In this document: in pieces, positions 10,774-30,082 of the stretch
Position numbering within the stretch: position 1 is the first letter of the stretch
Layout: each line of letters begins with the position of its first letter
Assembly: GCA_903832205.1 (NCBI GenBank)
Contig: CAILAH010000063.1
Span: 1-45,314, forward strand
Origin: an uncultured Microcaldota archaeon
GTDB taxonomy: Archaea; Micrarchaeota; Micrarchaeia; CAILAH01
DNA: 45,314 nt
Direction: 5' to 3'
Program-made: the position numbers and the translations under genes
Notes under the pieces: model-generated
Seen by the model: only the letters and a program-made list of their open reading frames with translations
The model's database searches: none
What the model was told of the DNA's origin: nothing

Positions 10774-10905
10774 ATAAACTGGAATATATATACCAAAATG
10801 AACAATACGGGTCTAGTTTTATAAATCTTCCCCGACAATCAGAATACTATCGGAGTGAGGCTAAGCCATAGCTTTCTCCAAGCCCCAAAAAATTGAGGTG
10901 AATTG

Positions 10906-13671
10906 ATGAAAAGTCTGAACACGAAGAAAATAGTCGCACTGGCGGCTGGCGCAACCCTTTTGGGAAGTGCACTGCTGGGCGCAGGCGCAGTATCCTTCGG
11001 GAACACTGAGCTGATAAACGCCAACGGTCAACCTATGGCGAAGGTTGTAGTTGGTGCTGCTGCAAGAGCGAGCGACGGAGTGGCGGCTGCAAATATTGCT
11101 GCTGTTATGGGTAACATGGCTTTCAAGTCTGCAGCCATTACTGCAAGCCCAGTCGGCCTTGACGGGTTGACATGTGCTGCAGGCGGTGCAGGAAGCTGTG
11201 AAGTGCTCAGCAAGTCGGTGACCCTCGAGGTTACAACCCCCGCAGGAGTTCTTCCCGCAGGTGCCTATGGGTTCGAGACATATATCTCAGACTACATAGA
11301 TGCCGCAACGAAGAATAGGGTACAGGACATGATTACAGGCAACCCATTTGCGCCTGGTGACACCACAGTCCCCTATACTGCGCTGAAGGTCACGGGAAGC
11401 AACTACCCGCCCCTGAAGGACTACGTAATCCACGACACGCACACTGGAACCTCATACGATGAAAACCAGTACCTGTACGTGAAGTCCGACAAGGTCTTTT
11501 TCTCGAACGATGTCGACGGCGACTTCAGGTCCGAGAACACTCAGGTTGCATACGAAATCGTCTTCGGGAACGATGGTCTGCCAGTCTGTGGTGACTCTGT
11601 AGCAGGTAACTGGGCGTACTGCAATCCATTGAACACCACCAATGCCAACGACGATAAGATGACTCCAAACCACAGGGTAAAAATCATGTACCTTGGTGAA
11701 GAGTGGGTCGTATCAGACATGAGCGGCATGCCAGCAGTCGGTGTTGGAGACACTATGGGCGGCAAGATAAAGCTTGCGAAGGAGAGTGCGTACTCACCCA
11801 AGCTGCAGATCGGAGAGTCCCTTGACCTCGGCGACGGCAACAAGCTCGTGCTTGGAGACCTTAAGCCCGCATCAGGTGGGCAGCCGAAAGACCTGGCAAT
11901 ATTCAGCATAAAGAATGCTGCTGGAGAGGAGATTGCAAACAAGGTCGTTGCACAGGGCGATACCACGGAGATTAATGCAGGCAGCAACACCTACAGGGTG
12001 CGTGTCTACCAGGCAGCTCCAGGTTATACCCTTGCTGAAAAGTGGGCAGAGGTTGCAGTGTTCGCCAATGAGCTGACCCTTGAAAGCGGCCAGAAGATTG
12101 ACGACACCGACAACAGGGACTACAAGGTCAGGCTCCTGTGGAAAGACAGGGATTCCGTCAGCCCAACGACTGACGCGCTGCACAAGATACAGGTCTACCT
12201 TACGAAGACTGGTGCATACACCAACCTGAACCCCGGCGACTCGATCGATTTGCTGAAGGTTCCCGCTAGGTGGAGGTTCACGTTCAGCGGCAACAAGCTG
12301 CAGGACAAGGACTACGACCAGCTGACCTACTCGCTTGAGGGTTCCAATTCGTTTGGCTTTAACGCATCCGCGACGGCCTCGAACCATGCAACAGTAGGTG
12401 GAATAGATTACTACACTGGTCCAAACACGACAACCAGCGCGAGGTCTATTCACGTTGTGGCATCATCCAAGATTTTCAAGTTCTTGGATGCGACAGGCAG
12501 CGAGATAACCACCGATGAGTTCATATATGCGCCGGTTTCGCATTATGCAACTGGAGTCACCGCTGTGGCAACGAATTTCCTCAACAGCCCGGTCGTTCTC
12601 GTTGACGTTAACGGCGACTATGTGCCTGTGCAGAACCAAGTTTCTGGAGCCATAACTACTCCGAGCTATGTCAACGGCTTCAAGGTTAAGTACAACTTTG
12701 GAGGCGCTGACTACCCGCTGTATTTCCAGGTTGGTGAGTACACCGCAGCTGGTGTTACCGACCAGGCATTGGCAGCGAGCGGTGTTCTGTCCGCAGATGG
12801 CTACTATACCGTATACACCAGCATGGGTGAAGACGCAGGCAACAGCAACGCTGACTGGCTTGGTATAAGGGCAATCCAGAAGACGAAGAATGTAGCAGCA
12901 ACCGTTCCTGGAAACTCTTCCATGGACTTTGAGTTCGACTTTGCGGGCACAACCGACGGCTCCGAGGAGAACTATGTGCTGTACAAGGCCTACAACCAGA
13001 TGAATGCGACAGCATGGTCTGGCACGAAGTCGCTGACAACCTCTGAAAACGACAACGACTGGAAGGTTATCGGCAACACCACTACGAAGATCGAGAAGGA
13101 CTTCTACTTCACAAGTAGGGGCTCCTATGTCGACTCTGGTGACACCGGCTCTAGCACATACGGCGTGAACCTCGCAAAGGATGTTGCGACTCTCGGGTTC
13201 ATGTGGCAGTCAATCAGTGCTGACTCGACAGGCGCGATGACCGAGACCTACTCTTCCCTGAAGGAGGGCGACGAAATCACCCTTTCTGACGGCGTGAAGG
13301 TCAAAGTGAAGTCGATCAACGTGGAGACTGGCTCGTGTGCATCAAGCGGTGCATCAGTTTCAGGCCTGGACAAGGTCTCATGCCAGCTTAATGTGGCAGA
13401 CACATCAAAGCTCGGCGAGAGGCAGAACGTCCCGACTGACCTGGTAGTGCTTGACAGCAACGCAGGCAGCCTTGAAACGGTTGTGGCAGTAGGTGGTGGT
13501 TCAGTGAACACCGTCACGCAGGCAATCCTCAGCGGCACAGGCGTGTCATTGACGAAAGCAGGCGATGTGGTGGTCCAGGAAGTCGAGAACGGCAAGATCG
13601 TTGTTGCCGGTTACACGGCTGACGACACTACGACTGCAGCAGGCCAGTTCATTGCCAAGCTGAAGGGCTGA
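10906..13671 (+). CDS. S-layer protein
   Basis: 922 aa; N-terminus 'MKSLNTKKIVALAAGATLLGSALLGAGAVSFGNTELINANGQPMAKVVVGAAARASDGVAAANIAA' matches the archaeal S-layer family; C-terminal 'LKAGDVVVQEVENGKIVVAGYTADDT'-like segment. Confidence 0.9.
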   Translation: MKSLNTKKIVALAAGATLLGSALLGAGAVSFGNTELINANGQPMAKVVVGAAARASDGVAAANIAAVMGNMAFKSAAITASPVGLDGLTCAAGGAGSCEVLSKSVTLEVTTPAGVLPAGAYGFETYISDYIDAATKNRVQDMITGNPFAPGDTTVPYTALKVTGSNYPPLKDYVIHDTHTGTSYDENQYLYVKSDKVFFSNDVDGDFRSENTQVAYEIVFGNDGLPVCGDSVAGNWAYCNPLNTTNANDDKMTPNHRVKIMYLGEEWVVSDMSGMPAVGVGDTMGGKIKLAKESAYSPKLQIGESLDLGDGNKLVLGDLKPASGGQPKDLAIFSIKNAAGEEIANKVVAQGDTTEINAGSNTYRVRVYQAAPGYTLAEKWAEVAVFANELTLESGQKIDDTDNRDYKVRLLWKDRDSVSPTTDALHKIQVYLTKTGAYTNLNPGDSIDLLKVPARWRFTFSGNKLQDKDYDQLTYSLEGSNSFGFNASATASNHATVGGIDYYTGPNTTTSARSIHVVASSKIFKFLDATGSEITTDEFIYAPVSHYATGVTAVATNFLNSPVVLVDVNGDYVPVQNQVSGAITTPSYVNGFKVKYNFGGADYPLYFQVGEYTAAGVTDQALAASGVLSADGYYTVYTSMGEDAGNSNADWLGIRAIQKTKNVAATVPGNSSMDFEFDFAGTTDGSEENYVLYKAYNQMNATAWSGTKSLTTSENDNDWKVIGNTTTKIEKDFYFTSRGSYVDSGDTGSSTYGVNLAKDVATLGFMWQSISADSTGAMTETYSSLKEGDEITLSDGVKVKVKSINVETGSCASSGASVSGLDKVSCQLNVADTSKLGERQNVPTDLVVLDSNAGSLETVVAVGGGSVNTVTQAILSGTGVSLTKAGDVVVQEVENGKIVVAGYTADDTTTAAGQFIAKLKG

Positions 13672-19870: not shown

Positions 19871-19919
19871 AACCGTCAGATAATTAAGACCGTTTCCCCT
19901 TTATATACCTTTCTTTTGA

Positions 19920-20021
19920 CAGCCCAAGGGGGAGCGCCGCATTTTCGCAGCGGCGAAAAGCGACGCCTTTTGGCTCTCAGCCAAAAGAGCGCCCCCTTAG
20001 TCCGTCACCGCCCAAACCCCC
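19920..20021. repeat. R2 dispersed repeat, intergenic copy, 5 nt downstream of the argS stop
   Basis: CAGCCCAAGGGGGAGCGCC...GCGCCCCCTTAGTCCG..ACCGCCCAAACCCCC; about 99/102 identical by eye to 27802-27903; outer AAGGGGG/CCCCCTT stem with two inner hairpins. Confidence 0.92.
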
Positions 20022-20026
20022 CGTCA

Positions 20027-21887: not shown

Positions 21888-21990
21888 CACTGATGGGGAA
21901 CCTAGGTTCCCCCTGTGCATCTTCGCCGTGCGAAGATGATGCATCATTCGGCTCCGCCGAATGCATGTCGTGTGGTCTACACCCCTTCCT
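21888..21990 (+). repeat. R1 dispersed repeat, intergenic copy A
   Basis: CACTGATGGGGAACCTAGGTTCCCC...CGTGTGGTCTACACCCCTTCCT; about 100/103 identical by eye to 27462-27564. Confidence 0.93.
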
Positions 21991-27432: not shown

Positions 27433-27461
27433 GCCTTACCCTTCGTTAATAATATTTAAAT

Positions 27462-27564
27462 CACTGATGGGGAACCCAGGTTCCCCCCGTGCATCTTCGC
27501 CGTGCGAAGATGATGCATCATTCGGCTCCGCCGAATGCATGTCGTGTGGTCTACACCCCCTCCT
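27462..27564 (+). repeat. R1 dispersed repeat, intergenic copy B
   Basis: CACTGATGGGGAACCCAGGTTCCCC...CGTGTGGTCTACACCCCCTCCT; near-identical to 21888-21990. Confidence 0.93.
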
Positions 27565-27646
27565 GCGAATATTTAAATTTGTTATCTACTCAAAGAACGT
27601 CATAGGGCTCCTGTAGTCTAGCCCGGTTAAGGACATTGGCCTCTCA

Positions 27647-27777
27647 AACACTGATGGAAGGGGGCACATCCCCCTTCCCTCGTGTGGCGTCAACCTATGG
27701 TTGACGACTTGCACAAACCTCGTTTGTGCAATGGTCTACACCTAACCCCCTGCGGGTTTGGGTTGTACTAAAGAGAA
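27647..27777 (+). other. tRNA-Glu intron 1 (position 37/38)
   Basis: Flanked by TTGGC/GCCGA stem, CTCT/AGAG central helix and 3-nt bulges. Confidence 0.88.
27649..27742 (+). repeat. R1-family repeat inside tRNA-Glu intron 1
   Basis: CACTGATGGAAGGGGG-CACAT-CCCCCTTCCCTCGTGTGG + two extra hairpins + TGGTCTACACC. Confidence 0.8.
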
Positions 27778-27798
27778 CGCCGAAAGCCCGGGTTCGAA

Positions 27799-27927
27799 TC
27801 TCAGCCCAAGGGGGAGCGCCGCATTTTCGCAGCGGCGAAAAGCGACACCTTTTGGCTCTCAGCCAAAAGAGCGCCCCCTTAGTCCGAGACCGCCCAAACC
27901 CCCAATGGTTTGGTGGTATTTCGAAAA
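27799..27927 (+). other. tRNA-Glu intron 2 (T-loop, position 59/60)
   Basis: CCGGG-TTCG-AA^T ... CGAA-AA^T-CCCGG; 4-bp central helix and two 3-nt bulges. Confidence 0.88.
27802..27903 (+). repeat. R2 dispersed repeat copy inside tRNA-Glu intron 2
   Basis: About 99/102 identical by eye to 19920-20021. Confidence 0.92.
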
Positions 27928-27987
27928 TCCCGGCAGGAGCTTTCTTATTCTTTTATTTCTTGCTGCAGATACCCTAGTGGTGAGCCT

Positions 27988-28295: not shown

Positions 28296-28332
28296 CATTT
28301 TTCTTGCCCTTTTTTTTGATTTTCTTTATTAA
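28296..28332 (+). terminator. T-rich terminator after mscL
   Basis: 'catttttcttgcccttttttttgattttcttta'. Confidence 0.45.
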
Positions 28333-28354
28333 TTTCACGCGAGATTATAGCCTT

Positions 28355-29719
28355 ATGGTAAAAGTCGTTTCCACTTACGGCCCAATGCTTGAGCAGAAAG
28401 GCCTTCTAGAATCGGTGTGCACCGAAAGCGACGTCCTGCGCATTAACATCTCGCACACCACCATTGAGCAGGGCATACACCAGTATAATCTTCTCAGAAA
28501 ATTCGGCAAGCCCATCATGATAGATACCTGCGGGCCCGAGGTGCGCATCCGCACAAAGGAGAAATTCCTGCTCAAAAAAGGCCAGCACATAAAGATAGGC
28601 AGGCCAAACTCATCGGCGAAGATATGCCTGGACCAGGACATCTATCCTCACATGAAGGCCGGTGAGATGATTTATTTCGACGATGGAATGGTGGCAGTTT
28701 CGCTGGTATCAAAATCGAAGGGCCTGATGGAGTTCCGCACGCACGAAGATGTTGAGATAAGGGACCATATGGGCGTCAACATGAAGGGGCGCTCGTTCAA
28801 CTTTCCCGCGCTCAGGAAATTCGACATTAGCGTGCTTCGCTCCACTGCGCCCACATTTGTCGCGCTCTCATTTACCAGGACGGCAGCGGACATAAAGGAG
28901 GCGCGCAGGCACACCGATGCAAAAATAATCGCGAAGATAGAGAATTGGGACGGCGTGAAGAACATAGGATCGATAATGGATGAAGCGGACGGTGTCATGA
29001 TTGCCCGTGGCGACCTGGGCGTTGAGGTCCCGGCCGAAGAGGTTCCCATAATACAAAAGGAGATAATCGAGCTTGCAAACAACCACGCAAAGCCCAGCAT
29101 AGTCGCAACCCAGGTGCTATACTCAATGGTTGAGCACCCGGTCCCCACGCGCGCGGAGGTGAGCGACATCGCAAACGCAGTGCTTGACGGCACCGATGCA
29201 ATCCTGCTTTCCAACGAGACCGCAGTGGGAAAATATCCGCTGCAGGCGGTACGCGAGGTGAAGAAGGTGGGCAAGCGTATCGCATCCCACGTCTGCACGA
29301 AAATCCAGGGAAATTTGCACATTAAATCCCTTGACACGGCATCTGAAATTCTCAGCAACACCATCTACTCAATAGCATCCAAAAGGGAAATCGACAAGAT
29401 AGTCGTGATAACGCGCTCCGGCTACAACGCGCACATGCTTTCCAGGTTCAAGCTGCCCAAGCCGCTGCTTGCGATAACCACTGAAGAAAAGGTCGCGCTT
29501 GAGCTCAACCTGCTCTACAATGTCACCCCAGTCAAGTGGGAAGCCCTGCCGAAGAAGAACGTCGTGCCAAGGGCTGCCCTATTCTGCCTTGAGCACGGGC
29601 TCATAGATGAGACAGACACGGTGGTGTTCACCGCGGCGGTGAGGACGCAGAAGAAGGACATAATGAACCTTATCGAAGTGCACGACATGAAGGACATGCT
29701 GCAGTATCTCGAGTTTTGA
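28355..29719 (+). CDS. pyk: Pyruvate kinase
   Basis: 'MVKVVSTYGPM', 'IIAKIENWDGVKNIGSIMDEADGVMIARGDLGVEVPAEEVPIIQKEII', 'DAILLSNETAVGKYP'. Confidence 0.95.
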   Translation: MVKVVSTYGPMLEQKGLLESVCTESDVLRINISHTTIEQGIHQYNLLRKFGKPIMIDTCGPEVRIRTKEKFLLKKGQHIKIGRPNSSAKICLDQDIYPHMKAGEMIYFDDGMVAVSLVSKSKGLMEFRTHEDVEIRDHMGVNMKGRSFNFPALRKFDISVLRSTAPTFVALSFTRTAADIKEARRHTDAKIIAKIENWDGVKNIGSIMDEADGVMIARGDLGVEVPAEEVPIIQKEIIELANNHAKPSIVATQVLYSMVEHPVPTRAEVSDIANAVLDGTDAILLSNETAVGKYPLQAVREVKKVGKRIASHVCTKIQGNLHIKSLDTASEILSNTIYSIASKREIDKIVVITRSGYNAHMLSRFKLPKPLLAITTEEKVALELNLLYNVTPVKWEALPKKNVVPRAALFCLEHGLIDETDTVVFTAAVRTQKKDIMNLIEVHDMKDMLQYLEF

Positions 29720-29804
29720 GCGAAAAACAAATATTAAAAAGCTATTACAACCGAAGATATATTCGTGCCGAGGTGGCAGAATCCGGTAATGCGTACGCCT
29801 TGAG

Positions 29805-29950
29805 TATGGGTGAGGGAGAAGCGTCTCCCTCTCCCATAAGACCCAACTCCCTCTCAAGAGGGTTTTGGACTCCTGTGGATTGAAATTCTCCTTCGTATGA
29901 GGGGGAGGTGTAGACCACACGAGGAGGGGGATACTTCCCCCTCATCAGTG
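29805..29950 (+). other. tRNA-Ser intron (position 37/38, ends +/-1-2 nt)
   Basis: Bounded by TACGC/GCGTA anticodon stem; TTGA/TCAG can form a central helix; internal TATGGG-T-GAGGGAGA...TCTCCCTC-T-CCCATA hairpin. Confidence 0.8.
29907..29950 (-). repeat. R1-family core repeat, reverse orientation, at the 3' end of the tRNA-Ser intron
   Basis: Reverse complement reads CACTGATGAGGGGGAAGTATCCCCCTCCTCGTGTGGTCTACACC. Confidence 0.8.
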
Positions 29951-29984
29951 AGCGTATGTCCGCAAGGACTCAGGAGTTCAAATC

Positions 29985-30082
29985 TCCTCCTCGGCGCTTT
30001 CTTTTTTAATTTTTCGCCTCGTCGGTTTTGCCTTCGGCAAAATCTCTGCAGCAAAGAGCTGCAGATTTCCTCCTCGGCGCTT
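29985..30082 (+). repeat. 15-bp direct repeat of the tRNA-Ser 3' end flanking a hairpin-rich 68-bp segment
   Basis: TCCTCCTCGGCGCTT at 29985-29999 and 30068-30082; between them TTTTGCC-TTCG-GCAAAA and CTGCAGC..GCTGCAG hairpins. Confidence 0.85.

Follow-up and report, generated by a model that had tools for sequence, protein, structure and literature searches.

Dispersed, putatively mobile elements in the two introns of a micrarchaeal tRNA-Glu(CTC) gene

Both introns of a tRNA-Glu(CTC) gene from an uncultured Microcaldota archaeon (Micrarchaeota; assembly GCA_903832205.1, contig CAILAH010000063.1) hold elements that are dispersed, occurring in other tRNA genes and also outside tRNA genes, the main point that the original prediction for this locus had missed. 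The stretch of DNA analysed, hereafter the window, is 45,314 nucleotides long. We consider it fairly probable, at roughly three chances in four, that non-autonomous mobile elements enter tRNA genes and that those inserted into the T-loop persist as introns excised by a relaxed EndA. According to this proposal, tRNA-Glu(CTC) would be a single-copy, working gene, of which both introns are cut by the epsilon2 EndA at relaxed BHB motifs and the exons presumably ligated. The introns would carry short (about 50-170 bp) non-autonomous mobile elements, A in intron 1 and B in intron 2, which would insert either way round, often leaving a direct repeat of the sequence just upstream. The tRNA genes would be favoured targets, B entering repeatedly right after TTCRAA at position 59/60. 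Such T-loop insertions may be tolerated because TTCGAA is self-complementary: a copy of TTCGAA at the far end, or a few mutations, would provide a TTCR/YGAA helix accepted by the relaxed EndA.

The gene consists of the following parts, read 5' to 3'.

27607..27646, + strand: exon 1 of tRNA-Glu(CTC), 40 nt, tRNA positions 1-37 (ARAGORN)
27647..27777, + strand: intron 1, of 131 nt, located at 37/38, with 27641-27644/27772-27775 as the central helix of its BHB (ARAGORN)
27778..27798, + strand: exon 2, 21 nt, tRNA positions 38-59, ending in the T-loop TTCGAA
27799..27927, + strand: intron 2, of 129 nt, a T-loop intron at 59/60, with TTCG 27793-27796/CGAA 27922-27925 as the central helix of its BHB
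27928..27941, + strand: exon 3, 14 nt, tRNA positions 60-73

The three joined exons make a 75-nt RNA that ARAGORN calls as tRNA-Glu(CTC) with a complete cloverleaf, so that the exon borders and the standard tRNA proposed in the original prediction were exact; when only intron 2 was removed, ARAGORN called tRNA-Glu(ctc) with a 131-nt intron. On the unspliced window neither an ARAGORN call nor an Rfam gathering match for a tRNA was obtained, as expected because the T-loop is interrupted. The acceptor stem (7/7) and the T-stem (5/5) are perfectly paired, as had been claimed, and so is the anticodon stem (5/5, one G-U). At both junctions a BHB or relaxed BHB with 3-nt bulges is present, and the reading of intron 1 at 37/38 (CTCT/AGAG, bulges CAA/AAC) and of intron 2 at 59/60 (TTCG/CGAA, bulges AAT/AAT) agrees with the sequence. 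The exon-side helices are the anticodon stem for intron 1 and the T-stem for intron 2, while the intron-side helices are weak at both sites, in agreement with the relaxed form suggested earlier.

An endonuclease of broad specificity had been predicted from these sites, and the genome indeed encodes an EndA of a type known for it. Typing identified the host EndA as a single 390-aa epsilon-type protein, of which residues 13-390 align with the ARMAN-2 EndA 4fz2 (E 1e-120), that is, an ARMAN-2-like epsilon2 enzyme. According to PMC4033280 and PMC12397907, epsilon2 EndA is of broad specificity and is linked to non-canonical introns. Beside the main EndA gene, a 161-aa protein (L136:1471-1956, - strand) gives a weak tRNA_int_endo match (24.6 bits, below the cut-off).

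The same tRNA-Glu(CTC) gene was found in four relatives, G001 to G004, all with an intron at 37/38. The congener G001 (L051) has introns at both positions and MscL downstream, and G003 (L047) and G004 (L050) also have both, with contents unrelated to those in the window. The T-loop is uninterrupted in G002 (L053, C17), where the frame downstream starts like pyruvate kinase, the window pyruvate kinase lying at 28304-29719; about 90 bp past this G002 gene lies a duplicated tRNA 3' end (ATCCCGGCAGGAGCACTCACTTC). Within family f1, the T-loop intron lacks B in G001, G003 and G004, and hence B did not create the T-loop intron of the window. That intron is probably older than its B copy; B was probably inserted at the 5' edge of an intron already present, or took the place of what that intron had contained. 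One further locus (L137, G198 C105), called tRNA-Asp by ARAGORN, looks by eye like a tRNA-Glu(CTC) with three introns, located in the D-loop, at 37/38 and in the T-loop, the last with B.

Since the source is a metagenome-assembled genome (MAG; 82% complete, 70 contigs), the gene might be dead, or its introns an assembly artefact. This seems most improbable: the tRNA stems are all intact, the gene and its intron positions recur in independent genomes, and central-helix complementarity is kept across the 17 T-loop genes described below. Nor did the 82%-complete assembly yield a second tRNA-Glu(CTC), one part of the finding that was to mark this gene as dead; apart from the present gene, the search of the assembly found tRNA-Glu as the TTC isoacceptor only. 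That gene (C60, L042) has a T-loop intron and lacks the canonical one. T-loop introns are not peculiar to tRNA-Glu(CTC). The original prediction, which placed multi-intron and non-canonical tRNA genes mainly in Thermoproteales, was thus right on the two-intron gene, and in part incomplete: the host belongs to Micrarchaeota and T-loop introns are more widespread.

Elements A and B are built alike: their 5' end is fixed, a G-run and a C-run form a hairpin, and another C-run lies close to the 3' end. Element A and its flanks in the window are as follows.

27649..27751, + strand: element A in intron 1, CACTGATGG-hairpin-CCCTCGTGTGG-two extra hairpins-TGGTCTACACCTAACCCCCT, by BLAST to dispersed copies in the own genome and G003
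27462..27567, + strand: element A upstream of tRNA-Glu, where G001 has the AATATTTAAA motif once (empty site)
27451..27461, + strand: left copy of the 11-bp direct repeat AATATTTAAAT flanking the upstream A insertion
27568..27578, + strand: right copy of the 11-bp repeat, resembling a TATA box and located about 28 nt before the tRNA
21888..21983, + strand: further element A, from its start to TCTACACC
29907..29950, - strand: element A, opposite in sense to the tRNA-Leu-like gene whose anticodon-loop intron contains it, flanked on either side by CATACG

The TATA-box-like repeat upstream of tRNA-Glu would presumably serve as promoter. The tRNA-Leu-like gene with the antisense element A in its anticodon-loop intron spans about 29750-29997 (+ strand), together with 30065-30080; its 3' end ATCTCCTCCTCGGCGC recurs about 83 bp downstream as ATTTCCTCCTCGGCGC, which may mark the border of a T-loop intron or a duplicated 3' end.

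A DNA search with the whole locus gave, unexpectedly, matches that covered just the introns; window positions 27649-27698 with extensions recurred on C24, C10, C38 and C57 and in G003. The 3' core of element A occurs exactly 15 times in the own genome, against 2 matches in all for the reversed control at up to 2 mismatches. Of four inexact matches to the core, those on C41 and C60 are A by inspection and those on C31 and C59 look like coding DNA. Counting the intron-1 copy, of which the core is split by the two extra hairpins, the genome contains about 18 copies. By inspection, about 13 of the 18 are located within about 150 bp of a tRNA or SRP RNA gene (C38, C25, C37, C60, C57, C10, C13), and several of these adjoin a duplicated tRNA 3' end. 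On C26 (L090:1202-1471), A starts at the 3' end of the SRP RNA gene, which scores 93.8 bits in Rfam against a curated cut-off of 96.5. The CACTGATGG/CTCGTG part of A was considered by eye as a K-turn or box C/D motif and this reading was dropped, as the D-box partner was not seen. The single viral match to the A motif (L084) shows nothing else of the element and was taken as chance.

Two copies of element B were identified in the window.

27799..27904, + strand: element B, making up the 5' part of intron 2 and directly adjoining exon 2 (R1 model, 65.2 bits, E 8.9e-12)
19917..20022, + strand: second element B, intergenic, matching the intron copy at 97% identity over 102 bp, its stem being TGAC/GTCA

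The core of B reads TNNC AGCCCAA GGGGG [variable hairpin] CCCCC TTAGTCC GNNA CC GCCCAAACCCCC; in the intron-2 copy, a TCTC/GAGA stem and a 5-bp G/C hairpin are followed by the GCCCAAACCCCC tail. Window positions 27802-27903 recur at 97% at 19920-20021 and on C51, and partly on C49 and C14; copies in the own genome outside tRNA genes are 96-99% identical. No Rfam family reached its gathering threshold in the window, introns included; the matches over the tRNA locus were all sub-threshold. The B core was found in 30 stretches of GTDB 220, all with titles of Micrarchaeota, Candidatus Ainarchaeum or just archaeon; these records also belong to the class sample of the own genome, in line with a micrarchaeal host. 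A covariance model detected B in 22 of 303 Micrarchaeia genomes. None of the viral contigs carries B. A viral origin of the region was also probed with the S-layer-like window protein at 10903-13671, of which no relatives were found in the viral contigs.

The middle letters of the TNNC/GNNA stem vary (GA, GT, CT, GC, CC) and GNNA follows them: 69 of 72 variable cells are paired against a shuffled mean of 40, and none of 10000 shuffles was as high. Covariation in alignment A1 is 0.247 against 0.055 for shuffled and at most 0.045 for slid controls. Relatedness inflates such scores, but one pair occurs as G-C, C-G and A-U and the other as U-A, A-U and C-G. B forms a covarying stem, which may act either in RNA or in single-stranded DNA. 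Strong structural covariation would also be expected if A and B were not mobile and instead served as structured RNAs with a function, be it as terminators, processing signals or guide-like RNAs, retained where genes and stable RNAs end, as would the A copy at the SRP RNA 3' end and the several copies that follow stop codons or tRNA 3' ends. We regard this as very unlikely, since a conserved cis-signal would not be expected to show long flush repeats, to differ in presence between orthologous sites, to lie antisense within tRNA genes or to be spread so patchily (22/303).

A total of 74 B copies were classified by location, with a seed pattern and model that contain no T-loop sequence. Seventeen start directly after TTCRA, TTCRAA or TTCRAAN in a tRNA T-loop, being counted where the tRNA acceptor pairs 7/7 and the T-stem 5/5 across the intron; random placement would give far fewer, the genome measuring about 1 Mb and having a few dozen tRNA genes. 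The T-loop copies cover at least 9 isoacceptors, Glu(CTC), Lys(TTT), Lys(CTT), Thr(TGT), Arg(GCG), Arg(TCG), Gly(GCC), Ala(TGC) and Tyr(GTA); in the remaining genes additional introns break up the sequence, which makes the anticodon calls tentative. Two copies lie antisense after the T-loop motif (L162, L125), and single copies follow a D-arm (L157), an anticodon loop (L144) and a tRNA 3' end (L175). The remaining copies lie outside recognisable tRNA genes, mostly following A/T-rich sequence.

Across the 17 T-loop introns that bear B, the T-loop and the 3' splice region are complementary, TTCG being accompanied by CGAA, and TTCA by TGAA or TGGA. The central helix TTCR/YGRA is perfect in 13 of the 17 and has 3/4 pairs in the others. 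This co-variation of the T-loop and the 3' splice region argues that the B-bearing introns would be cut as BHBs. In intron 2 of the window, TTCGAA is present at both ends (27793-27798 and 27920-27925) and, being self-complementary, could give the central helix by its duplication alone, an attractive route to a spliceable intron if such a duplication was its origin. In TTCAAA genes, the 3' copy is complementary to the T-loop motif and not identical with it, so selection alone could also build the helix.

On their 3' side the T-loop copies of B have an additional segment (GGTTTGnGGC..TGAAA), which is missing from many free copies, and therefore whole introns may also move between tRNA genes. Since this segment beyond B is common to the T-loop introns of families f1, f6 and f12, and since T-loop introns without B are alike within one genome, for instance G000 (C37 and C60), EndA-spliced introns might only be copied among tRNA genes by conversion or reverse splicing, the copies outside being by-products; a similar spread is published for Thermoproteales (reviewed in PMC4090602 and PMC4033280). 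We judge this unlikely as the sole process, because 57 of the 74 B copies are not sense T-loop introns, some being antisense, because some B copies with repeats of 13-38 bp lie outside any recognised intron, and because A is inserted upstream of tRNA-Glu at a site that is empty in G001. A short T-loop intron pattern was found in 98 of 118 genomes of the class (8 matches in G000 against 0 for the reversed control, some matches being coding DNA). Other T-loop introns are also alike within one genome (G062, G046, G000 C17/C20), with types CTTTTCTTT..AAGAAAAGCG..GAAAATCCC, which suggests that intron families beyond A, B and C (the last described below) exist.

Direct repeats at some copies are a possible sign of target-site duplication. 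At ten A or B copies, a repeat of 9-38 bp was found, of which the upstream copy ends at the first base of the element (within 1 nt). For B these measure 31 bp (L144), 20 bp (L162), 33 bp (L165), 38 bp (L172) and 13 bp (L176), and for A 30 bp (L092), 13 bp (L089), 11 bp (L041), 11 bp (27451-27461/27568-27578) and 9 bp (L042). In the control, 12 of 280 shifted positions reached 9 bp, 9 of the 12 being the same repeats cut back. The inserted unit has the order repeat, element, short spacer, repeat; repeat length, spacer and 3' end vary, in which the unit differs from a classical transposon, and most copies are without a recognisable repeat. Several repeats are pieces of tRNA (L144, L157, L162, L092), so insertions leave partial tRNA copies beside intact ones. 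At L144 (G179 C11), a copy of the 5' half ending in the anticodon loop, followed by B, lies upstream of a tRNA-Arg(GCG)-like gene. The upstream acceptor GCCCTCG pairs with the 3' acceptor better than the adjacent GCCCACG does, and therefore the long insert may itself be spliced. A 2025 study (PMC11782384) reported that many intron borders, also in archaea, have direct repeats close by; this agrees with an origin by insertion and is not specific to A and B.

Near-identical copies of the elements are dispersed at non-homologous sites, and empty orthologous sites were found among the compared genomes (incomplete MAGs), namely the tRNA-Gly T-loop in G199 and the site upstream of tRNA-Glu in G001. 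In genus g19, the T-loop of tRNA-Gly(GCC) is uninterrupted in G199. G161, G114 and G103 have introns of about 14-17 nt there, and G200 has one of 36 nt with a B-like beginning; G138 carries B, and G112 a B that has diverged. In G201, the tRNA-Gly(GCC) T-loop holds another G-run/C-run element, C, starting ACCCTAGGGGG, and in G021 two tRNA genes next to each other contain a C sequence much like it. A single intron passed on vertically does not account for these states. It is possible, though somewhat less likely than not, that A, B and C form a superfamily of minimal mobile elements in Micrarchaeota inserting at tRNA loop motifs, and that T-loop insertion is (nearly) automatically spliceable by EndA, TTCGAA being self-complementary.

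Candidate drivers of insertion were examined. An IS200/IS605 transposase was rejected, being absent from the own genome and several B-rich genomes: no Y1 transposase was found in the incomplete genomes G000, G088, G189, G014 and G130. Reverse transcriptase was also rejected, as its occurrence is patchy (9/40); the own genome encodes a reverse transcriptase domain on C26 (45301-45948, - strand; 442-aa open frame), about 6 kb from the SRP RNA/A site. A search for larger, autonomous copies in the loci examined found no second repeat copy lying further downstream of B than about 130 bp.

Archaeal introns at 59/60 are already listed in PMC4090602, and the 59/60 intron is therefore not new in itself. 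Non-canonical and multiple tRNA introns of archaea, including ARMAN-1/2 (PMC4090602, PMC4033280, PMC12397907), share with the present case the position, the relaxed BHB, several introns per gene and the epsilon2-type EndA, whereas neither dispersed structured elements within introns nor a single element recurring in many tRNA genes at one T-loop position is described in the available parts of these papers. The new part is the intron content, namely that A and B are dispersed elements recurring in tRNA genes and outside, although an earlier description is possible. If true, the superfamily reading of A, B and C given above would be a direct explanation of intron gain in archaeal tRNA genes. Since one orthologous T-loop shows several states within a genus, this gain is traceable at the sequence level and testable with a broad-specificity EndA of solved structure.

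In Thermoproteales, similar introns likewise occupy different tRNA genes (reviews PMC4090602 and PMC4033280), whereas here they occur also outside tRNA genes, with direct repeats and empty sites, in an unrelated phylum. The disruption of tRNA-Thr by an integrating element in Caldiarchaeum (PMC3293823) is alike in that a tRNA fragment is duplicated beside the intron-gaining tRNA; in contrast to its 1.8-kb recombinase-coding insert, the inserts described here are short (about 80-170 bp) and non-coding, at many loci of many genomes. MITEs and palindromic elements derived from IS200-IS605 are also short, non-coding, hairpin-rich and dispersed, with target preference, but long variable direct repeats are present here at some copies, and the Y1 transposase was not found in the own genome. 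In IStrons (group I intron plus insertion sequence; PMC4227781), a mobile element is likewise made harmless by splicing; here, there is no ribozyme or transposase gene, and splicing would rely on the host EndA. If the superfamily reading is true, A, B and C would be the counterpart of IStrons that relies on the protein splicing enzyme of the host.
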